A stretch of 64,000 bases of DNA from Opitutaceae bacterium (lineage in GTDB: Bacteria > Verrucomicrobiota > Verrucomicrobiia > Opitutales > Opitutaceae), in the NCBI GenBank assembly GCA_947474995.1, contig CANJNJ010000005.1, positions 1 through 64,000 on the forward strand, written 5' to 3'. Made by a program: the position numbers and the translations under genes. The stretch's first letter is position 1. Each line of letters begins with the position of its first letter. Under the pieces are notes generated by a model that saw nothing but the letters and a program-made list of their open reading frames with translations, was not told where the DNA came from and did not search any database. Below, one piece after another: positions 33,424 to 48,040 of this stretch.

Positions 33424-34947
33424 TCATCGGAGCCCAGACGACGTCCATACCGTGAGACCCGGAAGCGCGGCCTGAGGCTTCCGGCGGACGACGCTTATGC
33501 CGTAGGCCGTCACCATAAACACGCCATTGACCGACGGCCCAACCCAATAGCTATGGATATTGCTCGTCCAACGAGCCGGAAGCACGTGCATCAAGCCCAG
33601 CGCGAAATATACATTCAAAGCGACGGCCACGCCCAGAGCGACATTGACGGAAAAGCCGTCCACCCGCCGGGTAAAGAATCCAAGCATATAGACACCCATG
33701 ATGCACCCGCCGAGCACACTGAGGAGAATCAGGCTTACGTCGTTCATGCTTTCCTTCTCCAGCCGGCTGAAAATGAGCGCGCCAATCACCGCCAGCGAAA
33801 GTCCCACGGCCGTCACGACCCGCGCGGCCCGAAGGTAGAAACGGTCTTCGCGACCGCGGGCGAGATAAGGTTTAAGGACGTCGACCACCACCACGGTCGC
33901 AATCGAGTTCACCCCGGAATCGAGGGCGCTCATGGCCGCGGCAAGCACGGCCGCGATGATCATGCCGGCCAGCCCGGTGGGCACTTGCTTGAACACGAAA
34001 TAAGGCAGCACTTGTTCCGGTTGAAGTTTCAAGACCGCGGGATCGGGCAGCACCTGAAAAAAGACGAAGAGCGAAGTCCCGAGAAAAAAGAACATCGTCC
34101 AGGTGGGCAGGGCCACGCAGGCAAACAGCATCGTTGCCTTCCTTGCCTCCCGGGTCGAACGGGCCGAAACGTAGCGCTGGACCACGGTTTGCTCACCCGA
34201 ATAGATGTGCAGCCAGTTGACGACTCCCAGGATTGCCACCGTCCAGAAGGTGCGGGCATGCACGTCCCAGGCGAAACTACCGAGGCTGAATTTGTCATGC
34301 GCCCGGCCGACCTGCAGAACCTGTCCGAATCCGCCGGGCAATTTCACCAGCAGGCAGCCGAGACACAGCATCCCGCCGGCAATCTTGATGGTCGCTTGGA
34401 CGGCATTGGCCCAAAGCACGGTTTCCATGCCACCGACCAGCGCATACAGTGCAACAAAGACGCCGCACCCGACGATGACCCACTCGAGTCGCGCTGCGGT
34501 GAGGAACTGCATCGGCAACGCCACGAGAAACAACACGATCGCGAGCCGGATTAGCTGCAACACTATGAAGCTGCCCGTGCAGTAGAGCCGCGCGCCGCCA
34601 CCGAAACGTTCGGCGAGATACTCGAAGGTCGAGGTCAGTCCCGCGCGCCGGAAAAACGGGATGAAAATCACGATGGCGACAATTCCGACGACCGGCATCG
34701 CGAGATTCACGGTTAGCTGTCGCCAATCGAGGACATAGGCGGCCGCCGGCAACGCGAGAAACGTCGTTGAACTCACGATGGAACCGAGCAGCGAAAGCCC
34801 AACCAACCACCCGGGGAAATTACGATGGCCGACGAAATAGTGCTCCGCCTTCGTGCTGCGCCTCGCCGACACGAATCCGATCGTCAACATGACCGCGAGA
34901 TAGAGCCCAACGGCGACGGCATCGAGGGGGCGGATGGTCAGATTCAT
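33424..34947 (-). CDS. SSS family sodium:solute symporter of the glycan locus
   Basis: This 507-residue protein has 13 predicted membrane helices. The start at 34947 gives MNLTIRPLDAVAVGLYLAVMLTIGF, with helix 1 correctly placed. SSS features include RRSTKAEHYFVGHRNFPGWLVGLSLLGSIVSSTTFLALP near the N-terminus, EQTVVQRYVSARSTREARKA, and AAMSALDSGVNSIATVVVVDVL. These are closest in style to the sugar, inositol and sialic-acid branches, not to acetate permeases. It is divergent from the FAD fusion gene. A conserved 24-base element at 35036-35079 lies 89-132 bases upstream of its start, tying it to the rest of the locus. Confidence 0.9.
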   Translation of the reverse strand: MNLTIRPLDAVAVGLYLAVMLTIGFVSARRSTKAEHYFVGHRNFPGWLVGLSLLGSIVSSTTFLALPAAAYVLDWRQLTVNLAMPVVGIVAIVIFIPFFRRAGLTSTFEYLAERFGGGARLYCTGSFIVLQLIRLAIVLFLVALPMQFLTAARLEWVIVGCGVFVALYALVGGMETVLWANAVQATIKIAGGMLCLGCLLVKLPGGFGQVLQVGRAHDKFSLGSFAWDVHARTFWTVAILGVVNWLHIYSGEQTVVQRYVSARSTREARKATMLFACVALPTWTMFFFLGTSLFVFFQVLPDPAVLKLQPEQVLPYFVFKQVPTGLAGMIIAAVLAAAMSALDSGVNSIATVVVVDVLKPYLARGREDRFYLRAARVVTAVGLSLAVIGALIFSRLEKESMNDVSLILLSVLGGCIMGVYMLGFFTRRVDGFSVNVALGVAVALNVYFALGLMHVLPARWTSNIHSYWVGPSVNGVFMVTAYGISVVRRKPQAALPGLTVWTSSGLR

Positions 34948-35035
34948 GAAAAATTGGGTTAGGCGATCAGAGCGGCGCGCCCCGGCACTCGACAGGCGGT
35001 TGGGCCTCACCCTGAGCCTGCCACGACTCCACGTT

Positions 35036-35351: not shown

Positions 35352-37355
35352 ATGGCATCGAAAAGCTCCCTTGGCCTCTCCCTGAATGCCGGGATTTCGA
35401 ATGGTCCTGATTTCCTTGCGCCAGACCTCGTCGTGGTGGGCGGTGGTATGGCGGCCGTGATGGCGGCGCTGGCGGCGAAAACGCCCCATAATCGCGTGCT
35501 GCTCGTCGAGCCGAGCAACGTTCTGGGCGGGCAAGGGACGGCGGGCGGCGTCGCAGGTTTTTGCGGCGACACAGCGCGCGTCAATGAGGAGTTCGCCAAC
35601 CTTGTAGCGCAGCTTTCCCGCCACGGTCTGATTGAGCCGTTTCGACCGAACGACGATCGTCGGGCGTACGACTTGGAGTGGTGCGCGTTTTTCCTCCAGG
35701 AGATGGTCGCCGCGCGTGGAATCGAGGTGCTCTTACATTCCCGCGTCATTGCTGCGCGGGCCGCCGGGGGGCGGATTGCCGAAGTCACGGTGTCCACGGG
35801 TGGGGAGCTTCTGGCGTACACACCGCGGTTCGTCATCGACGCGTCGGGCGCCTGCGTCGTGCCGAGGTTGTGCGGGTTCGAGGTCATGCACGAAGGGGCC
35901 AACCGGCAACTGCCCATGAGCTTGTATTTCACGCTGTGGGACACCGGCCGCCCGGCAACCCCAATTCTGCCGCCCGGTTGTCCACGCTGGAAAACCGAGG
36001 AGGAAATACCGATGACGAGCGTCCATGCCTTTCCCACCGGCAAGATCGAGGTGAAGATGAAGGTCGTGGGTTTCGATGCGGCCGATGGTTTTAGTCGCTC
36101 AGCCGCCGAGATATTCGCCCGACGCCAGATGCACGGGTTGATCTATTTTCTCCAGACCGTGGGTTACCGAGGTCGCAAATTCGACACTCATGTGCTCGCC
36201 AGCGTGGCCCGTGGCATCGGCATCCGCGAAGAGCGCCGGATCGTTGGCGAACATCTGCTGACCGAGCAAGAGGCCCGGCGCGCGGTGATTTTTTCCGATG
36301 CGGTGGCGGTTAACACCTACCATATCGACTACCATTGGCCGGACCGGATGGAACGGGCGGACACGGGGATCAACGACATGCTCGATCCCCATCACTTGCC
36401 GCTGCGCATGATGATTCCGCGCGGCGCGCGCAATCTCCTGGTGCCGGGTCGAGGCGCCTCCGGCGACCAAATGGCGATGAGCGCGTTTCGCGTGATGGCA
36501 GTGGTCGCGCAAATGGGGTTCGCGGCCGGCCACGCCGCCCGCCAGTGTCTCGAGACCGACACCGACCTGACGACGATAGACATTCGCAAACTACAAACCG
36601 TGATCGAGGCTGGGGGGCAGTCGCTCAATCTTTCGGATTACGGGGAATATCTGCGCGCCGACCGAATCACCCAGGAGGAAGTATTGGCCGAGGGGGCGGG
36701 ATTCGCGAACCACGCGGCGATGGCTCTGCTGGCGCTAGACAACGGGCGATTCCTGGCGGCGTGGTACACCCCAGCGGCCGACGGCAGTGAGCGCGGAGAA
36801 ATCTGGACGGCCGAACGACGGGAAAAGCGGTGGTCCAAGGCCAGCCGGGTAGGCTCGGTGCCGTTGGACCGAGCGGCAAAATTGCACCTCACCTTCATCC
36901 ACGAAAAATCCGTGCGTCTTGCGTTCGACTCGAACCTCACGGGATTGCAGGCATGGGAATCGGTTGACGACGGATCAACCTGGCACATCGCGCCGATCAC
37001 CGCAGTCAACGAGGTCACCCCGCCGGCCTTGCCGTCCGCGCTTACAGGTCCGGCAAGCCGGGCCGCCTTTGCCGTGCTGGACAAATCCACGGTCGCCGCG
37101 GTGTTTACCGGGATTACCGTCGGTGGCCACGTTCCGCTGGTCGTCGCTCTTTCACCTGATCGCGGCGCGACCTGGCCAAATCATCGCGAAATCGATCCGG
37201 ACGCCGCGGCCGCACTTCCGGCGATCGTGGCCACCTCCACCGGATTGGCGATCCTCTATGCCTGCGCCGCCTCACGGCTCAGGTTCTGGCACGGTTCGGT
37301 CGAGCGCATCATTCACGGTCCGCCCAAAGCTCAGGCCCATGTCCTGCAAAGATAA
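35352..37355 (+). CDS. FAD-dependent oxidoreductase fused to a sialidase-like propeller domain
   Basis: This 667-residue two-part protein has residues 25-425 as an FAD_oxidored-type domain. The dinucleotide motif is VVVGGGMAAVMAAL (27-40), then VEPSNVLGGQGTAGGVAGFCG, VIDASGACVVPRLCG, and a C-terminal FAD-contact region MIPRGARNLLVPGRGASGDQMAMSAFRVM. From about 445 to 650 it reads as BNR/sialidase-type propeller blades with two Asp boxes, SVDDGSTW (537-544) and SPDRGATW (601-608). There is no signal peptide, which is odd for a sialidase-like domain and suggests cytoplasmic action on imported oligosaccharide. The dapA-like gene follows after 10 bases. Confidence 0.85.
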   Translation: MASKSSLGLSLNAGISNGPDFLAPDLVVVGGGMAAVMAALAAKTPHNRVLLVEPSNVLGGQGTAGGVAGFCGDTARVNEEFANLVAQLSRHGLIEPFRPNDDRRAYDLEWCAFFLQEMVAARGIEVLLHSRVIAARAAGGRIAEVTVSTGGELLAYTPRFVIDASGACVVPRLCGFEVMHEGANRQLPMSLYFTLWDTGRPATPILPPGCPRWKTEEEIPMTSVHAFPTGKIEVKMKVVGFDAADGFSRSAAEIFARRQMHGLIYFLQTVGYRGRKFDTHVLASVARGIGIREERRIVGEHLLTEQEARRAVIFSDAVAVNTYHIDYHWPDRMERADTGINDMLDPHHLPLRMMIPRGARNLLVPGRGASGDQMAMSAFRVMAVVAQMGFAAGHAARQCLETDTDLTTIDIRKLQTVIEAGGQSLNLSDYGEYLRADRITQEEVLAEGAGFANHAAMALLALDNGRFLAAWYTPAADGSERGEIWTAERREKRWSKASRVGSVPLDRAAKLHLTFIHEKSVRLAFDSNLTGLQAWESVDDGSTWHIAPITAVNEVTPPALPSALTGPASRAAFAVLDKSTVAAVFTGITVGGHVPLVVALSPDRGATWPNHREIDPDAAAALPAIVATSTGLAILYACAASRLRFWHGSVERIIHGPPKAQAHVLQR

Positions 37356-37365
37356 CCATCCTCCG

Positions 37366-38304
37366 ATGACTGCCCTGCGCTTACCAAGTCCCCTGACCGG
37401 CATCATTCCTCCCATGGTCACTCCGCTGCTCGATGCCGAGACGCTCGATCGCGAAGGCCTCACGCGACTCGTCGAGCATATTCTCGGCGGCGGGGTCCAT
37501 GGCTTGTTCATCCTTGGCACGACCGGGGAAGGCCCGAGTCTGGCCTATGCCTTGCGCCGCGAAATGATCTCGGCGGTGTGCGCTCAAGTCCGGGCGCGCG
37601 TGCCCGTTCTCGTCGGAATCACGGATACGGCTTTTGCCGAGTCGGTGGCACTGGCGCATCACGCCGCCCAATCTGGAGCGAGTGCCGTGGTCGTGGCACC
37701 ACCACCTTATTTCGCCTCGAGCCAGGCGGAGTTGCTCGGCTATTTTCGCCGCCTTGCCTTGGCGTCACCGCTGCCGGTCGTGCTCTATAACATGCCGGTT
37801 CACACGAAGGTGTTCATTGACACGGCCACGGTGCTGGCCGCCGCCGCGGTGCCTCAAATCGTCGGACTCAAGGACAGTTCGGGCAACATGACGTACTTCC
37901 ACCAAGTGCGCCTGTTGCTCTCGCAGCGCCCCGATTTCACGATGTTGGTCGGCCCGGAGGAACTACTGGGCGAATCGGTGCTGCTCGGCGGCCACGGCGG
38001 CGTAAATGGCGGAGCGAATCTATCTCCGGAACTTTACGTCGGCCTGTTTCACGCGGCGCGCGCCGGCGACCTGGCGAAAGTGCGGGCGCTGCACAAGCGC
38101 GTGCTGCAGCAAAGCACGGAGCTCTACACGGTCGGAGGTACCGGCGCGAGCCTCCTCCAAGGGTTGAAATGCGCCCTGTCGCTCCGCGGCCTTTGTCACG
38201 ATGCGCTGGCCGAGCCCTTCACGCGCTTCGGCCCGGCGGAACGCGCGACGATTGCCGCGAGGATGGAGGCGCTCGAGATCCCTGTGACCCACCGCACGGC
38301 GTGA
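37366..38304 (+). CDS. DapA/NanA-family aldolase or lyase
   Basis: This 312-residue class I (Schiff-base) TIM-barrel enzyme has a phosphate/carboxylate-binding loop GTTGEG at 51-56, Tyr141 (LYNMPVHT), and the Schiff-base Lys169 in IVGLKDSSGN. The family includes dihydrodipicolinate synthase, N-acetylneuraminate lyase and 2-keto-3-deoxy-sugar-acid aldolases. The gene is in a catabolic locus with a transporter and glycan-active proteins, so a role in cleaving a 2-keto-3-deoxy acid or a sialic-acid-like sugar is more likely than lysine synthesis. YNMP and GLKDSSGN do not decide between these. It starts 10 bases after the FAD fusion gene and is probably translated from the same message. Confidence 0.88.
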   Translation: MTALRLPSPLTGIIPPMVTPLLDAETLDREGLTRLVEHILGGGVHGLFILGTTGEGPSLAYALRREMISAVCAQVRARVPVLVGITDTAFAESVALAHHAAQSGASAVVVAPPPYFASSQAELLGYFRRLALASPLPVVLYNMPVHTKVFIDTATVLAAAAVPQIVGLKDSSGNMTYFHQVRLLLSQRPDFTMLVGPEELLGESVLLGGHGGVNGGANLSPELYVGLFHAARAGDLAKVRALHKRVLQQSTELYTVGGTGASLLQGLKCALSLRGLCHDALAEPFTRFGPAERATIAARMEALEIPVTHRTA

Positions 38305-38355: not shown

Positions 38356-39237
38356 ATGCGTTTTTCCCCGGATCGCAAGAAAGTGATGGCCGCGCTTTCC
38401 GACTGGTTGGACTCGCCGCCCAACCTGCCGATTCTACGCGTGCTGGAGGGCAAGCGCCCCGCGAACGAACATCCGGCGTTTTTCATGGAGGTGCCGCGGC
38501 TCATCGTCGGCATCGAGGGGCGGGGCACCTTTCTCACGATCGAAAAAGACCGGGAAATCGTCTTCGATTTAGCCCCGGGACAAGTGCTCTTTCTTGCCCC
38601 CTGCACTTGGATCTGCCCGGTGCCCCATGCAGCCTATCGATCGCTCGGCGTCATTTTCCGACCGGATTCGACCCGGCTGACCATTCACGCCCGGCGGGCC
38701 ATGGCCGCAGACGGCCGGATCCAATCCCGCTACCTCGCCCAGTGGCGAACCCAGGAAACGCTCGGGCCCAAGGGCGATCATTTGCTGCAGCTGCTTCGCG
38801 GCGCTCGGGCCGAGCGACTCGGCGAGCGGACGTTCAACCTGCTGATGGAGATCCTGGTCGCCGAGGTCGCCGCGCTGGCCGAACGGGCGCCCGAACATTT
38901 GCGCGCCACCCAGACCGTGCTCTGGCAGTCCGTCTGCGACTACATCTCGGAACACTGGTCGGACCCGAAGTTGGGCCGCGATTCGGCCGCGCGGTTTTTC
39001 AACCGCCACCCGAACCATTTCTCGCGCTTTTTCCACGAGCACGCGCAACAAAATTTTCGCACCTATGTGAACGAGGTGCGGCTGGAGCGCAGCCTGCATT
39101 TCCTGCGCGATTTGCGCTACAACGCCACCGACGTGGCGAACCTCTGCGGCTTCACGGACCTGCAATATTTCATCCGCTGCTTTCGGCAGCGCTTTGGCCT
39201 GACCCCCGGGGCCTACCGCAAACGCCTCGAGGATTGA
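38356..39237 (+). CDS. AraC family transcriptional regulator
   Basis: This 293-residue protein has an N-terminal sensing half (about 1-180; a cupin-like strand pattern, VEGIEGRGTFLTIEKDREIVFDLAPGQVLFLAPCTW). The C-terminal double helix-turn-helix domain starts near residue 190 (VCDYISEHWSDPKLGRDSAARFFNRHPNHFSRFFHEHAQQNFRTYVN) and ends with the AraC signature ATDVANLCGFTDLQYFIRCFRQRFGLTPGAYRK. It sits inside the locus, 52 bases after the aldolase gene and just before copy 2 of the shared 24-base element, so it is the obvious candidate to bind that element. The inducer is probably a locus substrate or product. Confidence 0.93.
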   Translation: MRFSPDRKKVMAALSDWLDSPPNLPILRVLEGKRPANEHPAFFMEVPRLIVGIEGRGTFLTIEKDREIVFDLAPGQVLFLAPCTWICPVPHAAYRSLGVIFRPDSTRLTIHARRAMAADGRIQSRYLAQWRTQETLGPKGDHLLQLLRGARAERLGERTFNLLMEILVAEVAALAERAPEHLRATQTVLWQSVCDYISEHWSDPKLGRDSAARFFNRHPNHFSRFFHEHAQQNFRTYVNEVRLERSLHFLRDLRYNATDVANLCGFTDLQYFIRCFRQRFGLTPGAYRKRLED

Positions 39238-39240
39238 AAG

Positions 39241-39284
39241 CCCGACGCTACGTTTTTCCCTGTCTTGCTAGTTTATTTTCATGC
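39241..39284 (+). promoter_or_regulatory. shared regulatory element, copy 2 (first sialidase-like gene)
   Basis: It begins CCCGACGCTACGTTTTTCCC, then TGTCTTGCTA and GTTTATTTTCATGC. Over 44 bases it matches copy 3 (40665-40708) at 41 positions. It starts four bases after the AraC stop and lies 39 bases before the chosen start of the next gene. Confidence 0.8.
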
Positions 39285-39322
39285 GCCCTTTTCGGGCCGA
39301 ACCCCACCCTCCGGCTTGTCGT

Positions 39323-40591
39323 ATGAAATCCCCCTTCCTGTCGGCCTTTCTTTTTTCCACAGCCGGACTAGCGTCGCTGGCCGCCGCGGAGCCATCCGTC
39401 CCCAAGGAATCCGTCGCCCGAACGGCACCGAACCCCAATGTCGCCGCCCCGCATCCGGTGAAAAATCCCGGCTCGCGCATCATGCTCGCCGGCGACTGGG
39501 TGCCATCCGATTCCCACACGATCAATTTTGAAAAACTCCCCCGCCTGGCCGTTGAGCACGTCGTCGTGAGCGACGCCCACGCGCGGCAGGGCGTGAATCA
39601 GCACAATTACCTCATCCACCATGACGGCCGTTTCTGGGCGATGTGGAGCGACGGCCCACGCGTCGAGGATATGGTGGGGCAGGTGGTAAAGTATTCCACG
39701 AGTCCCGACGGCCTGAAATGGGAGACGCCGAAGTTCCTCACCGGCTATCCGCCGAATTCCGGCCCGGCTTCGCCGTATTACAACACGCGCCAAAAGGAAG
39801 GATTCCGCTACATCTCGCGCGGCCTGTGGGTGCGTGATGGACAGTTGCTGGCGCTCGTCTCGCTCGATGAGGCCGCGGGATTCTTCGGCGAGAGCCTGGA
39901 ACTGCGCGCCTTCCGGTGGAATCCGGCGGCACAGCAATGGGATGACGCCGGAGTGGTGCAGCAAAATGCGATCAATAACTTTCCGCCGCAGCGGTTGCCC
40001 ACTGGTGAATGGGCCATGACCCGCCGCCGCCATGATTACAAGGATACCGGCGTCGAGTTTCTGATCGGTGGCGTGAAGTCGCTGGACAGCTGGATTTCCG
40101 TTCCCGTGGTGGGAGGGGCCGGCGGGGACCTGACCCTCAAGGCCGAGGAGCCGATTTGGTGGCCGCTGCCGGACGGCAATCTCATGGCCCTCTTTCGCGA
40201 CAACAACAAGAGCCAGTCCCTCTTCCGCGCTTTCTCGACGGATGCGGGCCGGACCTGGAGCACGCCGGTGCAGACGGACTTCCCGGACGCACGTTCCAAA
40301 CTCCATGGTCTTCGTTTACAGGACGGGCGTTACGCCCTCGTCTCGAATGCCAATCCGAAGAAACGCGATCCTCTGACGCTCGCGCTGAGCAATGACGGCA
40401 TGGTGTTCGACAAATTGTTCTATGTGGTCGGAGGACGCTGGGTCGATTACCCGCACCTGCTGGAACACGACGGCTATCTCTACATCACGCATTCCGGTGA
40501 CAAGCAGTCGGTGGAAATCGAGCGGGTGCGGATCGCCGATCTGAACAAGCTGACGATGCCGGCCGGCCCCGCGCCCAAGGTCTCCCGCTAG
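39323..40591 (+). CDS. secreted sialidase-like (BNR) beta-propeller protein, paralog 1
   Basis: This 422-residue protein has a signal peptide (MKSPFLSAFLFSTAGLASLAAA). An earlier in-frame ATG at 39281 lies in the shared repeat and is not preferred. Propeller blades carry Asp-box-like sequences STSPDGLKWETP and STDAGRTWSTP. Conserved stretches shared with 46811-48040 are DGRFWAMWS, FRYISRGLWVRDGQLLALVS, NNFPPQRLPTGEWAMTRR and LVSNANPKKRDPLTLALS. The classical sialidase FRIP motif is not evident, so the glycosidic bond attacked is uncertain; it could also be a lyase or rhamnosidase-like propeller. It should act outside the cytoplasm before import through the neighbouring TonB receptor. Confidence 0.83.
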   Translation: MKSPFLSAFLFSTAGLASLAAAEPSVPKESVARTAPNPNVAAPHPVKNPGSRIMLAGDWVPSDSHTINFEKLPRLAVEHVVVSDAHARQGVNQHNYLIHHDGRFWAMWSDGPRVEDMVGQVVKYSTSPDGLKWETPKFLTGYPPNSGPASPYYNTRQKEGFRYISRGLWVRDGQLLALVSLDEAAGFFGESLELRAFRWNPAAQQWDDAGVVQQNAINNFPPQRLPTGEWAMTRRRHDYKDTGVEFLIGGVKSLDSWISVPVVGGAGGDLTLKAEEPIWWPLPDGNLMALFRDNNKSQSLFRAFSTDAGRTWSTPVQTDFPDARSKLHGLRLQDGRYALVSNANPKKRDPLTLALSNDGMVFDKLFYVVGGRWVDYPHLLEHDGYLYITHSGDKQSVEIERVRIADLNKLTMPAGPAPKVSR

Positions 40592-40664
40592 CGACACCCA
40601 CCCGCAAATGGCCCCGCCCCCGCAGGGCACGCGGCGGCTATTCCGCCCCAGGCATGGCGCCGAG

Positions 40665-40708
40665 CCCGACGCTACGTTTTTCCCTGTCTTGCTATGTTAT
40701 TCTCATGC
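40665..40708 (+). promoter_or_regulatory. shared regulatory element, copy 3 (TonB receptor)
   Basis: It is identical to copy 2 over its first 30 bases and then reads TGTTATTCTCATGC. It lies 89-132 bases upstream of the receptor start, almost the same distance as copy 1 from the symporter start (89-132). Confidence 0.8.
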
Positions 40709-40796
40709 CACTCGACCGGCGGTTCAGCTTTCCCTCCGATCACTTCGCTGGTGCCCCGCGTTCACTTCTGACTGTAGTTTCCTGCTTATTCCCGCC

Positions 40797-43754
40797 ATGA
40801 AATTCTCCCGACCTCATCTTCAATTCGGCGGAATCCAACTCCGCTTTTTTGCACTTCTCTTCAGTTGCGTGGCCGCCGTCGGATTCATGGCCGCGCAGTC
40901 CAATGTGGGTTCCGTCACCGGTTCCGTCGTCAACCGCGATACCAAGGGCTACCTCGAAGGCGCCCGCGTCACCTTGGTAGAGTTGAACCGCAGCACGCTC
41001 AGCCAACGCGACGGCAGCTTCATCATCGCCGATGTACCGCCCGGAACCTATCGCGTCACGACCTATTACACGGGTTTTGACGTCATGGCGACGACCGTGC
41101 AGGTGGACACCGGCCGGGCGTCAAACCTTGAGTTCAGCCTGCTGCCCGAGGTCTACAATTTGGATAAGTTTGTGGTGTCCGCCTCCCAAATTGGCGAGGC
41201 GGCCTCGATCACCAAGCAACGCAACGTGATGAACGTAATGAACGTCGTCAGCACCGAGGCGTTCGGCAACGTGGCCGACGGCAACATCGGCAATTTTCTC
41301 ATGCATCTACCCAGCATCTCCGGCGATATGGAGAACGGCGAGGTGACGGGCGTCCGCGTGCGCGGCCTTCCGCCGCATCTCAGCGCCGTCAATGTTGACG
41401 GGGTGCGTGCCGCCTCGGCTCTGGCGGGCTTCAATTCCATGTCGGATCGCGCCGCCCAAATCGATCACATCCCGTCCGAGTTCGTCAAGGAGATCGAATT
41501 GATCAAGGCCCCTCTGCCTGAACATGCCGTCGATTCCCTCGGGGGCGGGGTGAATCTCGTCACGAAGTCCGCGCTCGATTTTGATCATGACGTCTTCACC
41601 TACCGGGCGGGCGTCAATCACAACTTCCAACGCAGCGATCTGCGCCAATACACGCCCAACCTCGCGCTCAGCTATCTCACGCGTCGCGGCGAAAAGCGAA
41701 ACATCGGCATCGCGCTTTCGCTGACCTACACGGATTCCGTCTCCCCCCGCGATCGCATCGACGGTCAGCGCGTCGAAGCCGACCTGCGAAACACGCAGGC
41801 CCGGACTCTCGCCAATGCCAACGAACGCTGGCGCAAGGGCGTGGGCTTCAAATTCGACTACCGCTTCAACGACCAAGCCAGTGTCTACGCCAAATTCCAG
41901 CACAACTATTTTCTGACGCGCCGTCCCCGGACCGAACTTGCGGTCAAGGTCACCAGCCGGCTGGTGGCCGACTACAAGGTCGTCAGCCGTGCGGCGATCG
42001 AGGCGGGCACCACACCCCGCACCACCGCCGGCGCGGTGGCCGGGGTGGCTCCGGGATATACGGATACCTTCACTGAGCTGCTCGGCGCCTCGTTCCTCCA
42101 CCAAGTCTCGGGCGATAGCGCCCCGCGCATCTGGCAGTATTTCTACGAGCTCGGCGGAGCCCGCCAGTTCGGCGGCGATCAAAAGTTATCCTTCCAGGCC
42201 ACCTACAACCCCTCGAACGGCCGCACCACGGCGGAGGGACTGATTGCAACGATGGTGCCGAGGTTCGGCCTCTCCATCGACGCCCACGGGGACCAGCGCA
42301 AGCCGGTTTACCGCCAGACCTACGGACCCACGATCGGCCTCGGATCAGACCTGAGCCAATATACGGCGACGTACTCCGAATTGGAGGACCTCGCCGACGA
42401 CAACATGACCAACCTCAAGACGGATTACGAAAAGGTTTTTCGTTCGCTGTCCAATCCGATAAAACTCAAGAGCGGGGTGTCCTGGCGCCGGCAGATGAAA
42501 TACGGCGGCGCCGGAACCGCCCCCAACTACAACTTTGTCGGCGCCGACGGCGTGCTGGGACGCAATCCTGCCACGGGAATTAACGACGACAACCTGGCGC
42601 AGTTCCTGACGGGTCGTCCGGTTTTTCCCGTCAAGGTCCAGGGTTCCAGTCCGTGGCCGGCCATGGACGACTTGGACTTCAAGCGATCGCAGACGCTATT
42701 CAAAACCAACCCCAAGTATTTTGCCCAATTTGCGCCCGCAACCTACAACATCAATCAAGCCACGGAAGAAGTCTCGGCTGCCTATGCGCAAGCCAGTGCG
42801 CAGTACGGCAAGCTCAACGTCCTCGGGGGCGTGAGATTCGAACGGACCGCGGTGGTGGCAACCGGCCGGGTGACGGACCCGCGCAGTCCCACCGTCCTCA
42901 CCGCGACCAAGAACGGCGACTATCAGGGCTATTTCCCGAGCCTCCACCTTCGCTACGATGTTTCGAAATCGCTCGTCGGCCGCGCGAGCTACTCCACCAG
43001 CATGGCTCGTCCCAATATGACCGATCTCTTTCCGACGACCTCGGTCAGTTACTCCGGTGATATTGGCACCGTGACCCAGAACAATCCGGGCCTGAAACCG
43101 CAGTTCGCGAAGAATATCGACCTATCCTTGGAGTATTATTTCGAGCCGGCCGGCGTATTTTCCCTCGGTTGGTTCCACAAGGACATCACCGATTTCATCT
43201 CCCGCGGCCTCACCCAGATCGGAACCGGCCCCGACAACGGCTTCAACGGCAAGTATGCGTCTTTCGATCTCAACACGGCCTTCAACGTGGGTTCGGCCGA
43301 GGTCCAGGGCTTCGAGATCAATTACAACCAGAACTTCGCCATGTTGCCGAAACCCTTCAACGGCTTCTCGCTGTTTGCCAACTATACCAGCCTGAGAACC
43401 TCCGGAAAATATAACAACGGCGTCAGCGAACTCGACGGTTTCGTGCCGCAGACCGCCAACGCCGGCATCACCTACCACTGGCGAAGCTTCACCTCGCGGG
43501 TCAGCTATAACTACACCGGCGACTTCCTCCGCACCCGCAACAATGACATCAATCAGCAGCTGCGCTTCCGGCCGAAGACCGTGGTCGATATCAGCTTTCA
43601 GTACCAATACCGCCCGCAACTCGCGTTCTTTGTCGATTTCGTCAATCTCGGCGATTCTTGGCCCGTCTGGTATACCGGCACCAACCGCGAGCGGGTGCGC
43701 ATCGCCGATAGTTACGGGGCGCGGTCTAACATCGGAGTTTCGGGCCGATTCTGA
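40797..43754 (+). CDS. large TonB-dependent receptor with carboxypeptidase-like regulatory domain
   Basis: This 985-residue outer-membrane protein has a signal peptide (MKFSRPHLQFGGIQLRFFALLFSCVAAVGFMAAQ). An N-terminal CarboxypepD_reg-like domain follows at about 38-115 (GSVTGSVVNRDTKGYLEGARVTL ... DGSFIIADVPPGTYRV). A TonB-box-like LDKFVVSAS is next, then a plug (IGNFLMHLPSISGDMENGEVTGVRVRGL ... VNVDGVRAAS ... IELIKAPLPEHAVDSLGGGVNLVTKSA) and a barrel ending in Phe (RSNIGVSGRF). This architecture is that of oligosaccharide-type receptors. The start at 40797 is the one preceding the signal peptide; the upstream open frame crosses the regulatory element. It probably imports the product of the sialidase-like proteins. 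Confidence 0.94.
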   Translation: MKFSRPHLQFGGIQLRFFALLFSCVAAVGFMAAQSNVGSVTGSVVNRDTKGYLEGARVTLVELNRSTLSQRDGSFIIADVPPGTYRVTTYYTGFDVMATTVQVDTGRASNLEFSLLPEVYNLDKFVVSASQIGEAASITKQRNVMNVMNVVSTEAFGNVADGNIGNFLMHLPSISGDMENGEVTGVRVRGLPPHLSAVNVDGVRAASALAGFNSMSDRAAQIDHIPSEFVKEIELIKAPLPEHAVDSLGGGVNLVTKSALDFDHDVFTYRAGVNHNFQRSDLRQYTPNLALSYLTRRGEKRNIGIALSLTYTDSVSPRDRIDGQRVEADLRNTQARTLANANERWRKGVGFKFDYRFNDQASVYAKFQHNYFLTRRPRTELAVKVTSRLVADYKVVSRAAIEAGTTPRTTAGAVAGVAPGYTDTFTELLGASFLHQVSGDSAPRIWQYFYELGGARQFGGDQKLSFQATYNPSNGRTTAEGLIATMVPRFGLSIDAHGDQRKPVYRQTYGPTIGLGSDLSQYTATYSELEDLADDNMTNLKTDYEKVFRSLSNPIKLKSGVSWRRQMKYGGAGTAPNYNFVGADGVLGRNPATGINDDNLAQFLTGRPVFPVKVQGSSPWPAMDDLDFKRSQTLFKTNPKYFAQFAPATYNINQATEEVSAAYAQASAQYGKLNVLGGVRFERTAVVATGRVTDPRSPTVLTATKNGDYQGYFPSLHLRYDVSKSLVGRASYSTSMARPNMTDLFPTTSVSYSGDIGTVTQNNPGLKPQFAKNIDLSLEYYFEPAGVFSLGWFHKDITDFISRGLTQIGTGPDNGFNGKYASFDLNTAFNVGSAEVQGFEINYNQNFAMLPKPFNGFSLFANYTSLRTSGKYNNGVSELDGFVPQTANAGITYHWRSFTSRVSYNYTGDFLRTRNNDINQQLRFRPKTVVDISFQYQYRPQLAFFVDFVNLGDSWPVWYTGTNRERVRIADSYGARSNIGVSGRF

Positions 43755-43843: not shown

Positions 43844-44872
43844 ATGCGCTTCCGCCCCAAACCTCCGCTCCTGCGGTCCGGCGTAGTCTTTCTCGTGTGG
43901 TGGAACCTGACGTGCGGCCTGGCGGCGCCGGCGACGCGGCTCACGGAGACACCGGCGTCGTCCGCCGCCGCGGATGATTTCGTCCCCACCAAGGCCACGA
44001 TCGATCGCGCGGATTTTACGACTCACGCCTTTGTTCTGCGGGACCAAGCTCTGCTGGCCTACTACGTGCGGCCCGGCACCGGACCAACCTTGGTGCTGAG
44101 TCCCGGGACCCACGGTGATCGCAGCACATATTTCACCGACGAATTTCTTTCGTCACTCGACGCCCGGTTCGGTGTCGTGATCATTGAAACGCGCGGACAA
44201 GGCCGGAGCTGGCCGCCCCCGACCACGGCGCAGGCGACGATCGAAAGTTACGCGGCCGATGTTATCGAGGTCGCCCGCTACCTGAAATTGACGAACTGGT
44301 ATGTCTCCGGCCACAGCTTGGGCGGCATGACCGCGATCGAGATCGCCGGTCGTAAACCCGCCGGTTTGCGCGGCGTAATTACCCTGGAAGGCTGGGTTCA
44401 CTTTCGCGCGACCCAGCTCGCATTTTCCGGCCTGCCAGCCGCGACCCAGGAGCAAAACGCCGAGGGCCGACGACAACGCGAGGCCCGGCGGATTTCGCAG
44501 CGCTGGACTCCCGAGGAAAATGCCTTGTTGACGGGCATGTGGCGCATCTGGGACCACGGTGAGGCGATCATGCGGGAAACGGCGCTGCCCTTCCTGACGC
44601 TTTGGGGCGATCGCGATCTCGCCGTGCGACCGGGGCGAGAGAAACTGCTGCTGCCGGACCGACCGAATGTGCAGGTCGGGTGGATCGCTGGTTCGGGCCA
44701 CTATATCACGGCTCCACGCCACGCTGGCGACGTGGCCGCCCGCATTAATCGCTTCATCCACGAGGTTGAGAACGCCACCACCCGTAAATCGGGCGATTCG
44801 TCACGGTCACAGCACGGAATCCGGGTCAGCTCTGATTTTCAAACCTGCGCCGGATTTTCGAATTTGAACTGA
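43844..44872 (+). CDS. exported alpha/beta hydrolase
   Basis: This 342-residue protein begins with a basic-hydrophobic leader (MRFRPKPPLLRSGVVFLVWWNLTCGLAA), a likely signal peptide; the Cys may make it a lipoprotein. The fold has an oxyanion region VLSPGTHGDRSTYF, nucleophile elbow SGHSLGG with Ser158, acid Asp256 or Asp258 (LWGDRDLA), and His286 (GSGHYI). It is of the esterase/epoxide-hydrolase type. It lies 89 bases after the TonB receptor and 2 bases before the FAD oxidoreductase, so it is part of the same transcript; removal of acyl groups from the glycan is a reasonable guess. Confidence 0.87.
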   Translation: MRFRPKPPLLRSGVVFLVWWNLTCGLAAPATRLTETPASSAAADDFVPTKATIDRADFTTHAFVLRDQALLAYYVRPGTGPTLVLSPGTHGDRSTYFTDEFLSSLDARFGVVIIETRGQGRSWPPPTTAQATIESYAADVIEVARYLKLTNWYVSGHSLGGMTAIEIAGRKPAGLRGVITLEGWVHFRATQLAFSGLPAATQEQNAEGRRQREARRISQRWTPEENALLTGMWRIWDHGEAIMRETALPFLTLWGDRDLAVRPGREKLLLPDRPNVQVGWIAGSGHYITAPRHAGDVAARINRFIHEVENATTRKSGDSSRSQHGIRVSSDFQTCAGFSNLN

Positions 44873-44874
44873 CG

Positions 44875-46827
44875 ATGTCCTGTCCCGATGCCCCCAGTCC
44901 GCGCTCCTCGCCCAATTCCGGCGCGAACCGATCCTGCGAGGTCGTCGTGATCGGCGGCACGCCTGCCGGAATCGCTTTTGCCGTGAGGGCCGCGCGCGAA
45001 GGTGCCCGCGTTTTGTTGGTCAATCACACGAATCATCTCGGAGGCATGCTGGCCAACGGCCTCGGGGTGTGGGATACCCGCTATGAGCGGAAGCGTGCAC
45101 CCATCTACGACGAAGTCCGCCAAGCCATCTTCGACCACTATCGCGAGACCTATGGCGCGACCTCGCAACAGTGTGCTGACGCGCAGCCCGGAGCGACCGG
45201 ACACAGCAACGGCAAGTTCGAGCCGCACGTGGCTGAGACGATCCTGACCAGGCTGGTGCGGCAGGAAGCGGGAATTGAAGTGGTGCTGAATCACTACCCG
45301 GCCGCCGTCGAACGCACCGGCGCGACGATTAAGAGCGTCACGTTTGCGAATCAGGAGGGCACCGGCCGCTTCCGCGCCACGGCCCAAGTATTTGCCGACT
45401 GCTCTTACGAAGCGGATTCCTTTCCGCTCGCCGGCATCCCGTATCGCGTCGGTCGCGAGGCGCGCAGCGAGTTTGGCGAGACGCACGCCGGCGTGATATT
45501 CATGCAGTCGGTTGAAACCGCGCCGACGCTCGACGACGCCCGAAAGGCGGAGGCACAGTCGGCCTTGCGGTTGCGGCATTTTGGCGGTTTTCAGGTGCGG
45601 CGAGGCGAGAGCACGGGCGAAAGCGACTCCAACGTGCAGGCGATGAATTATCGGGTCATGCTGACGAAAGATCCGATCCGGCGCCGACCCGTCGCGCGAC
45701 CCGCCCATTACGAGCCGGCGCAGCTGCGCACATTGGAGTTCGGGGCGGAAGTGGCGGGGATACCGAACGGCAAGCTCTGCTTGAACCGGCCGCAGCTACC
45801 CGGGCCACACAACGCCTACGTGGAGGGCGACTGGCGGGCGCGCCGAGCGATAATGGACGCCCATTGGGAGACAGCGCTCGCCATGCTTTGGTTCAGGCAA
45901 AATGATTCGTCCGTGCCAGAGGAGGAGCGGCGCCGCTGGCGCGAATACGGCCTGGCGGGCGATGAATTCGCTGACCATCACCACCGCCCTCACGAAATCT
46001 ACGTCCGCGAGGGTCGCCGGCTTTGCGGGCGCTATCTGCTGACCCAGGCTGACACCCTGCCCGCGGCCGGGCTGGCCCGGCCTCCCCTGCATGCCGACAG
46101 CATCGCGTTCACGGAATGGTATGTTGATTCGCACGCGTGCACGCCGCGTCGCGTGAGCGGCAGCCTTCCGGAGGGAAAGGTCATGCTTCATCAGGAAACG
46201 TTCCCCGGGCAGGTGCCGCTCCGCGCTCTGCTACCGGAAGGGGTCGATAATCTGCTCGTACCGGTCAATCTCAGCGCGACGCACGTGGCCTGGAATACCG
46301 TGCGGCTGGAGCCAACCTGGATGCATATCGCGGAGGCCGCGGCCCACGCGGCCGTGCAGGCGTTGGAGCAACGCGTGGCCCCGGCGGCCATCGATGTCGA
46401 CGCGCTGCGGCAAACCCTCGCGCAGCGCGGGGTCCTACTGGCGTTTTTCAACGACCTCGAATCCGCTCCCAACGACGAAGTGGCGGCGGCCGCGCAATAT
46501 TTTGCCACTCGCGGTTTTTTTCCCGACTACAATGCCCGTCTCGAAATGCCGCTCGATCAGGGTACCTCCGAAATATGGCTGCGAGCGACCACCGGCTCCG
46601 GAGAACTCGATCCGATGGTGGTGGCCCGGGCCGTAATGGCGGCCTCCACGCGAGGCGGGCCGCCGCTCAGCCACGCCGAGTTCGCCGAGCGGTCCTCCCC
46701 TCAGGCCTCAGCACCCGCACGGCCCGGAGTCATTTCCCGCGGCGAGGCCTTGCTCCTCCTGTGGAGCCGCGTGCGAGCTGGTTCGGCCACAAACCCCGCC
46801 AATTTTTCCCATGCCGCTCTCAACTAA
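44875..46827 (+). CDS. FAD-dependent oxidoreductase (FAD_oxidored family)
   Basis: This 650-residue protein has an N-terminal dinucleotide motif VVVIGGTPAGIAFAVRAAREGARVLLV, then HLGGMLANGLGVWDTRY. A central helical region of unknown function follows, then an FAD-contact region PEGVDNLLVPVNLSATHVAWNTVRLEPTWMHIAEAAAHAA. It resembles the large verrucomicrobial/planctomycetal FAD-dependent oxidoreductases often annotated near xanthan-lyase or sialidase genes. There is no clear signal peptide. It is not a copy of the FAD domain at 35352 and has no propeller of its own, but its 3' end overlaps the start of the second sialidase-like gene by 17 bases, so the two activities are again paired. Confidence 0.85.
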   Translation: MSCPDAPSPRSSPNSGANRSCEVVVIGGTPAGIAFAVRAAREGARVLLVNHTNHLGGMLANGLGVWDTRYERKRAPIYDEVRQAIFDHYRETYGATSQQCADAQPGATGHSNGKFEPHVAETILTRLVRQEAGIEVVLNHYPAAVERTGATIKSVTFANQEGTGRFRATAQVFADCSYEADSFPLAGIPYRVGREARSEFGETHAGVIFMQSVETAPTLDDARKAEAQSALRLRHFGGFQVRRGESTGESDSNVQAMNYRVMLTKDPIRRRPVARPAHYEPAQLRTLEFGAEVAGIPNGKLCLNRPQLPGPHNAYVEGDWRARRAIMDAHWETALAMLWFRQNDSSVPEEERRRWREYGLAGDEFADHHHRPHEIYVREGRRLCGRYLLTQADTLPAAGLARPPLHADSIAFTEWYVDSHACTPRRVSGSLPEGKVMLHQETFPGQVPLRALLPEGVDNLLVPVNLSATHVAWNTVRLEPTWMHIAEAAAHAAVQALEQRVAPAAIDVDALRQTLAQRGVLLAFFNDLESAPNDEVAAAAQYFATRGFFPDYNARLEMPLDQGTSEIWLRATTGSGELDPMVVARAVMAASTRGGPPLSHAEFAERSSPQASAPARPGVISRGEALLLLWSRVRAGSATNPANFSHAALN

Positions 46828-48040
46828 GATCATCACACCCCTTCGCTCTCCTCGCCTGCTGTGCGCCCTGTTGGGCTTGTGGCTGCAGGCGGTCGGCGGC
46901 CGGGCCGCGGAAACCCTGCCGCCCATGCTCGATCTGCCAGGGACGCGCGGCGACCCGGACAAGATCGCTTTTAACACGCTGCCCACCTTGCGTGGCGCGC
47001 ACGCGATCGTGTCGCACGGCAACGCGCCGTGGGTGTTTCGGAACCACAGCTACCTCGCCTGGTTCGACGGGCGCTACTGGGCCATGTGGAGCCATGGTCT
47101 GCGCCAGGAGGATTTCCCCCAGCAGCATGTGCAATATGCGACCAGCCCGGACGGGCTGGTCTGGGCGGAATCAAAACCGCTCGTCGGTCCATCGCCCGAC
47201 CAAGACTTCCGCTATATTGCCCGCGGCTTCTGGGTGCACCAAGGCCAGCTCCTGGCCCTGGCCAGCCACGACGAGTCGTACGACGAGACGGGAAAGAAAA
47301 AACTTTTCGGCCCCAGCTTGGAGTTGCGTTCCTACCGATGGGATCCGGCCACGAGGTCGTGGCAACCGCACCTCGTGCTGGCCAAAGACACGATCAATAA
47401 TTTTCCGCCGGCCTCGCTGCCCGACGGCAAATGGGCCATGACGCGACGCGACCACAACCTAAAGGTCTCGATGTTGATTGGAGGAGTCGAAGCACCCAAC
47501 CAATGGACCGACATTCCGCTCACGATGCCACCCGGCAGCACGTTTCGCCCGGACGAACCCACGCTCTCGGTCCTGCCGGATGGTCGCGTGCTCGGCTACT
47601 TTCGTGACAACAGCCACTCGAAGCGCCTGTTTCGCGCCGTATCGCTCGACAACGGACGGAGTTGGTCGGAGCCGGCCAAGACCAATTTCCCGGACGCCAC
47701 GTCGAAGTCTTTTCCCCTCCGCACCTCGCGCGGTTACTATGTCCTCATTTCCAACGCCAATCCCGCGCCCGAGCAACGCATCCCCTTGTGCCTGTCGGTT
47801 TCGGAAGACGGCCTCACCTACACCCGGATGGCCCGGTTACCGGTCCCCACGGCACCGCAGGATTTCCTCCCGCGCACCGGCACGCGCAAGGCCGCGGGCT
47901 TTCAATATCCGCACGCCATCGAGCACGACGGCAACCTGCTGATTATCTATTCCCGCGACATGAAAACCGCGGAATCAATCTTGGTGTCGCTGGATGAGAT
48001 CGATCGGCTGCGGAAAAATAATTTGACCGGGAATCCATGA
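46811..48040 (+). CDS. secreted sialidase-like (BNR) beta-propeller protein, paralog 2
   Basis: This 409-residue protein has a signal peptide (MPLSTKIITPLRSPRLLCALLGLWLQAVGG). It is clearly homologous to 39323-40591: DGRYWAMWSHG, YATSPDGLVWAE, FRYIARGFWVHQGQLLALAS, NNFPPASLPDGKWAMTRRDHN, SLDNGRSWSEPAKTNFPDATSK and LISNANPAPEQRIPLCLS. YPHAIEHDGNLLIIYSRDM near the C-terminus matches YPHLLEHDGYLYITHSGD in the paralog. Shared Asp, Glu, Arg and His in these blocks are candidates for the active site. It begins inside the last codons of the FAD gene in another frame, implying coupled translation. Confidence 0.83.
   Translation: MPLSTKIITPLRSPRLLCALLGLWLQAVGGRAAETLPPMLDLPGTRGDPDKIAFNTLPTLRGAHAIVSHGNAPWVFRNHSYLAWFDGRYWAMWSHGLRQEDFPQQHVQYATSPDGLVWAESKPLVGPSPDQDFRYIARGFWVHQGQLLALASHDESYDETGKKKLFGPSLELRSYRWDPATRSWQPHLVLAKDTINNFPPASLPDGKWAMTRRDHNLKVSMLIGGVEAPNQWTDIPLTMPPGSTFRPDEPTLSVLPDGRVLGYFRDNSHSKRLFRAVSLDNGRSWSEPAKTNFPDATSKSFPLRTSRGYYVLISNANPAPEQRIPLCLSVSEDGLTYTRMARLPVPTAPQDFLPRTGTRKAAGFQYPHAIEHDGNLLIIYSRDMKTAESILVSLDEIDRLRKNNLTGNP

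Follow-up and report, generated by a model that had tools for sequence, protein, structure and literature searches.

Organization of the locus

The window, a stretch of 64,000 nucleotides of an Opitutaceae genome, carries a gene whose single product joins an FAD oxidoreductase domain to the remnant of a sialidase-type beta-propeller (Table 1). This combination in one polypeptide, proposed in an earlier note made from the sequence, was borne out by the profile searches (PF12831, E 2.1e-71; sialidase-like C-terminal half), and the architecture is conserved in relatives. The overlap of the second FAD gene with a sialidase-like gene, also pointed out there, amounts to 17 bp, and the pairing of FAD_oxidored and BNR_2 recurs elsewhere as adjacent or overlapping genes.

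Table 1. Features of the fusion gene and its neighbors, with positions in the window.
Feature	Position	Strand	Basis
SSS-family sodium:solute symporter, divergent from fusion gene	33424-35010	-	PF00474; best PDB match 5nv9, E 2e-55
Fusion gene, FAD_oxidored and eroded BNR_2 propeller	35352-37355	+	ATG 35352 to stop 37355, 667 aa
FAD_oxidored domain PF12831, residues 25-416, GR2-type flavoprotein fold	35424-36599	+	E 2.1e-71
Remnant of blades 1-2, residues 444-545	36681-36986	+	BNR profile positions 2-107
Asp box SVDDGSTW, residues 537-544	36960-36983	+	Motif position in ORF
Remnant of blades 5-6, residues 568-655	37053-37316	+	BNR profile positions 228-318
Second Asp box SPDRGATW, residues 601-608	37152-37175	+	Motif position in ORF
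C-terminal motif FWHGSVE, last strand	37284-37304	+	Motif position and alignment
DHDPS/N-acetylneuraminate-lyase family gene, 10 bp downstream of fusion gene	37366-38304	+	PF00701, E 5e-54
AraC-family regulator; adjoins fusion gene in most Opitutaceae loci	38356-39237	+	Profile match
BNRa, intact BNR_2 propeller gene, apparent signal peptide	39281-40591	+	PF13088, E 1e-24
TonB-dependent receptor; conserved in several neighboring loci	40608-43754	+	Profile match
Alpha/beta hydrolase	43844-44872	+	Profile match
Second FAD_oxidored gene, different subfamily	44875-46827	+	PF12831, E 6e-87
BNRb, second BNR_2 propeller gene, apparent signal peptide	46811-48040	+	PF13088, E 6e-17; overlaps second FAD gene by 17 bp

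Flavin domain

In a Pfam search, PF12831 scored 241.8 bits on the window protein against a cut-off of 27, and the match covered profile positions 1-414 of 416. The N-terminal glycine-rich FAD motif GGGMAA (residues 30-35) and the C-terminal FAD motif GARNLLVPGRGASGDQMAMSAFRVM (residues 358-382), both conserved in the subfamily, were found where the earlier note had placed them, and both of its Asp boxes are present. As it had also stated, there is no signal peptide: no hydrophobic stretch was seen by eye upstream of the Rossmann motif, and the product is probably cytosolic. An AlphaFold2 model of the window protein (pLDDT 80, pTM 0.83) gave geranylgeranyl-reductase-like and halogenase flavoproteins as the best structural matches of the flavin half (Z 18-20); among the Foldseek matches listed for this model, only the flavin half was represented, and the propeller match was obtained with VIA-align. 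A PDB sequence search with the window protein alone returned nothing significant, and an NCBIfam search returned no equivalog for the fusion protein. The flavin domain is fully conserved throughout and most likely the working part of the protein, and it is predicted to bind FAD. The window protein resembles the PF12831 family in its near end-to-end domain match, both FAD motifs and the GR2-type fold, whereas its subfamily is distinct and very conserved (a long, fully supported branch) and usually carries a C-terminal sialidase-type propeller.

Propeller remnant

BNR_2 (PF13088) matched residues 428-630 of the window protein with an E value of 4.5e-5 and 23.4 bits, below the Pfam gathering cut-off of 31.4. 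An HMM constructed from the C-terminal halves of intact relatives matched it in two pieces (profile positions 2-107 and 228-318; 96 bits), and by this profile the C-terminal half (about residues 436-655) is assigned as homologous to the BNR_2 propeller. Blade limits were taken from DSSP on an AlphaFold2 model of the intact KSB1 protein, in which profile positions 108-227 correspond to residues 538-657; these positions, which make up blades 3-4, are absent between the two remnants, leaving the window protein short of six blades. Both Asp boxes agree with the published consensus S-X-D-X-G-X-T-W (PMC2716378), and two such boxes did not arise once when the C-terminal half was shuffled 20,000 times. 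The model has about 16 strands between residues 439 and 648, and its residues 435-655 were superposed on bacterial sialidases with Z 17-18 and an rmsd of 3.0-3.4 A over about 211 residues, and the aligned region covers almost the full chain range of those propellers. We infer from the model an open arc of four blades set in a six-blade frame, a geometry that the intact homologues in the AlphaFold alignment may have imposed. The earlier proposal of a propeller was right as to kind, sialidase-like by profile and by AlphaFold2 superposition, but the propeller is partial, the alignment showing four of its six blades.

Nearly the same part of the propeller is missing in two other Opitutales genomes (L042 and L043). 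In most Opitutaceae relatives, what follows the FAD domain has shrunk to about 165 residues, made up of a first blade in degenerate form and one or two blades from the end; the proteins of closely related genomes, genus mates included, have about 60 fewer of these residues than the window protein. An assembly artefact or frameshift was ruled out, since many independent bins carry the short forms as open, in-frame genes. An alphaproteobacterial bin (L053, 807-4268) encodes a C-terminal part of 248 aa with no BNR profile match and the last-strand pattern kept, possibly an independent erosion. At another locus (L054, 1498-2637; G002:C149), the FAD gene ends at about residue 350 and is immediately followed by an AraC gene fragment, as in a truncated copy or an assembly join.

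The last strand contains F-W-H-G-S-x-E, of which W, H and G are invariant in all intact fusions and in 11 of the 12 eroded fused proteins. The WHG tail is not conserved in stand-alone propellers. This distribution suggests that the WHGSxE tail is a feature of the fusion, perhaps of its contact with the FAD domain.

Intact, split and FAD-only relatives

Strong matches over most of the FAD domain were found in 9 of 95 related genomes, the window's own not counted, and a scan of one genome per species with two peptide patterns gave at least 32 loci, a lower bound, of which about 28 are true members. Many of these loci come from metagenome bins, and a few look mis-binned; a member on a contig binned as Dechloromonas (L050, 927-2903), for example, is nested in the Opitutaceae clade, lies near an AraC gene 62% identical to that of the window, and is probably mis-binned.

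The search for the same domain order, recommended in the earlier note and made here in other genomes, yielded nine intact fusions of 740-804 aa in several phyla, each with a complete six-bladed BNR_2 propeller after the FAD domain. Their hosts are Opitutaceae, KSB1, Latescibacterota, a Gemmatimonadota bin, Phycisphaeraceae, another planctomycete and one further bacterium. In the KSB1 protein (766 aa), FAD_oxidored was matched with E 7.6e-75 and BNR_2 with E 4.4e-73, and the propeller of its AlphaFold2 model was superposed on sialidases with Z 35.4 and 2.4 A over 311 residues (Foldseek E 8e-18), human cytosolic NEU2 ranking first and bacterial sialidases also being matched. The premise that such propellers are normally exported does not hold in general, given this cytosolic top match and the cytosolic GH33 proteins already noted (PMC2716378); the stand-alone propellers closest in sequence likewise have no obvious signal peptide at their start by eye. 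In Phycisphaerales UBA7800, both parts are separate adjoining genes with the propeller first (L051, 8902-9981 and 9999-11339), and members consisting of the FAD domain alone occur in Flavobacteriaceae, Planctomycetota and Omnitrophota. One FAD-only protein of Omnitrophota (L059, 7090-8508) has a twin-arginine-like leader, RRNFVKK, by eye, and some members may work outside the cytoplasm.

A fusion that is unique, or known only in decayed form, was ruled out by the orthologues in many genomes. The earlier note had named a unique and decayed fusion as one outcome that would overturn its proposal: the fusion is not unique, being intact in several phyla, but it has decayed in the lineage of the window. 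No description of a pairing of FAD oxidoreductase and sialidase-type propeller was found in the open-access literature (most subscription journals lay outside its scope), and searches for literature on PF12831 with PF13088, or on a rhamnogalacturonan-II route, gave nothing usable.

Evolution and constraint

In the FAD-domain tree, the window protein falls in a clade of nine short forms (support 100/100), the sister of which is the shortened pair L042/L043 (66/88). A single clade of intact fusions was ruled out (AU p 4e-40), and FAD-only or short members therefore arose from or among them more than once. The tree, which has no root inside the family and does not polarize gain and loss, is consistent with an ancient fusion that was lost or split several times. 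For the short form of about 165 aa, the best tree has the longer window form nested among its members, and the AU test allows one clade (p 0.24).

Mean identity within the window clade was 80% for the FAD domain, 33% for blade 1, 29% for blade 5 and 50% for blade 6. Rough dN/dS estimates, with dS near saturation in most pairs, were 0.09-0.17 for the FAD domain, 0.24-0.66 for the eroded C-terminal half and 0.065-0.165 for intact propellers. Constraint on the C-terminal half of the window protein is weaker, which argues against a conserved binding pocket.

Sialidase-type residues

The profile of intact fusions was aligned by HMMER to the solved GH33 sialidases 4bbw and 4fj6. The conserved GH33 Glu, Arg, Arg and Tyr, which we take to be the active-site positions of the family, aligned with the Glu of WES, the Arg of LLRS, the Arg of xRxPL and the Tyr of SYP, respectively. 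Intact fusions carry the Glu in eight of nine cases and both Arg and the Tyr in all nine (9/9 each). The split propeller has the set as well, as do nearly all of the 11 stand-alone propellers. All four residues are missing from the 12 eroded proteins: the Glu and the first Arg lie within the deleted blades, and other residues stand in place of the second Arg and the Tyr (in the window protein, H and L). With these catalytic-type residues gone, it is very unlikely, on the alignment, that the window propeller is a sialidase-type enzyme, and the suggestion that it cleaves a substrate finds no support in this protein.

In GH33 sialidases, the Arg of (F/Y)RIP, the first of the triad, is located at the start of blade 1. 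Intact fusions have His-Ala-Ser (HAS) at the start of blade 1, and the sequence alignment to solved sialidases begins later. The intact relatives resemble GH33/BNR_2 propellers in having six blades, Asp boxes, a NEU2-like fold and the aligned Glu, two Arg and Tyr, with sialidase activity putative, and differ in being fused to a flavoprotein and perhaps also in the HAS at the start of blade 1; the window protein differs further in lacking blades 3-4 and the catalytic-type residues.

Gene neighborhood

The lyase gene product scored 183.4 bits on PF00701 (cut-off 22.1), with 4xky as the best PDB match, and missed the cut-offs for NanA (NCBIfam NanA equivalog, 89.4 against 382 bits; PRK04147, 106.6 against 281). 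Lyases 49-60% identical to it lie directly beside stand-alone propellers in G367 and G319 (order BNR-DHDPS) and also beside sister-subfamily FAD_oxidored genes in G266 and G370; in G370, propeller, lyase and FAD genes form a consecutive FAD-DHDPS-BNR run. In L042 and L043, the fusion gene is followed by a sulfatase gene, a BNR_2 gene and a related lyase gene, and several more loci have sulfatase genes close to the fusion gene or the FAD gene. A DHDPS-family gene adjoins in only part of the loci.

Adjacency in the window's own genome was counted from the match tables of the profile searches. Of the seven strong PF12831 matches, six have a BNR_2 match within 2.2 kb, against the 3.1% expected from the share of the genome that is this close to one; with the window contig left out and one match taken per contig, three of four PF12831 matches are near BNR_2 (p about 1e-4). 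Since these genes recur as neighbors or fusions, we conclude that the FAD_oxidored protein, the BNR_2 propeller and the DHDPS-type lyase are functional partners.

BNRa had a single PDB sequence match, 5mqr (E 4.8e-8), which is also the best PDB match of BNRb. This structure, named beta-L-arabinobiosidase, contains a BT_1020-like propeller; the match covers one propeller part and concerns the exported neighbors BNRa and BNRb, not the fusion protein.

Some further arrangements were observed. In the same gene neighborhood, one ORF of about 930 aa (L035, 2337-5141) combines an N-terminal sulfatase with a C-terminal BNR_2/BT_1020-like propeller. At two loci, a gene whose product has two tandem BNR_2 propellers directly follows a sister-subfamily FAD_oxidored gene (L097, 6468-8921, in G104; L098, 6717-8867, in G203). 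The genome G000 contains an unusually large set of 43 BNR_2 matches, several of them in tandem clusters (contigs C43, C124 and C132).

Discussion

From the directly computed architecture, distribution, erosion, loss of catalytic-type residues and gene partnership, we regard the window protein as, most likely, a working flavoprotein whose ancestral propeller has been worn down to a non-catalytic structural appendage and which belongs to a sugar-acid catabolic module. The ancestor would have been a PF12831 FAD oxidoreductase to whose C-terminus a GH33-like BNR_2 propeller, complete with six blades and catalytic-type residues, had been joined. Blades 3-4 would then have been deleted in the Opitutales lineage of the window together with the Glu and one Arg, and the other Arg and the Tyr replaced. 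The remnant was probably kept because the last blade and the WHGSxE tail would pack on, or stabilize, the flavin domain or its oligomer.

A different role was envisaged in the earlier note, namely a C-terminal half that works as a glycan-binding or -cleaving propeller and presents to the flavin site an oligosaccharide taken up from outside. The sialidase-like fold, and the presence of catalytic-type residues in the same polypeptide in intact relatives, make this plausible for the intact, ancestral-type form, and something like the cleave-and-present model may apply to those relatives. In the window protein, however, blades 3-4 and all of the GH33-aligned catalytic residues are gone, this half changes far more rapidly than the FAD domain, and genus mates are reduced still further, so that we consider such a role here very doubtful. 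Even with the sialidase-type residues lost, the remnant may have a lectin-like or protein-binding role.

At the other extreme, the remnant may play no structural part and be neutral material in the course of being lost, as the stepwise shortening on the tree, the relaxed dN/dS and the FAD-only members in three phyla would allow. This is unlikely, because dN/dS stays below 1, the last blade is better conserved in the window clade than blade 5, WHGSxE is nearly invariant after erosion, and several independent genomes have the short form as an open, in-frame gene. A remnant of four blades (about three in relatives) might also be closed into a propeller by a second protomer, with a new symmetric site. 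Blade fragments of two WD40 propellers build homo-oligomeric propellers (PMC6805158), and the window model, from its aligned length and rmsd, would place the remnant on a gapped six-blade frame. Yet the blade sequences are poorly conserved and the precedent comes from WD40 rather than Asp-box propellers, which makes closure by a second protomer highly improbable.

Under the preferred explanation of an eroded, non-catalytic appendage, the module comprises the flavin enzyme, the DHDPS/NAL-type lyase, the SSS symporter and the signal-peptide propellers, which keep several sialidase-type residues, with sulfatases added in relatives, and it most likely serves to break down a sugar acid of the sialic or ulosonic type. 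The exported propellers would release the sugar acid, the symporter would import it, the flavin enzyme would oxidize or reduce it or its aglycone, and the lyase would split off pyruvate. Known sialic-acid catabolic sets consist of a sialidase, a symporter and an N-acetylneuraminate lyase, and the window is like them in its 5nv9-related SSS symporter, its DHDPS/NAL lyase and its sialidase-type propellers. It differs in that its lyase scores below the NanA cut-offs (89-107 against 281-382 bits) and is closest to 4xky, and in that FAD oxidoreductases and sulfatases take part.

An extension of this explanation, bolder and on balance rather unlikely, is that the multi-phylum intact fusion is a two-site enzyme, in which the propeller and the flavin site, together with a DHDPS/NAL-type lyase, would act on an undescribed sugar acid and couple oxidation to ketoside cleavage. 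The Opitutales would then have handed cleavage over to exported propellers and kept the flavin half with a docking tail.

The conserved two-domain architecture across phyla, together with the graded loss of blades and catalytic residues, goes beyond the earlier note and is the most interesting point of this analysis. It provides a natural series of a beta-propeller shedding blades, from six to about four to about three, while the partner domain stays intact, and the series bears on the shrinking of repeat folds and on the retention of a dead enzyme domain as a structural part. A large flavoprotein family with few known substrates is now tied to sialidase-type glycosidases by fusion, split genes and gene order, and this link permits a defined search for a substrate with the intact fusion of 740-804 aa taken together with its lyase.
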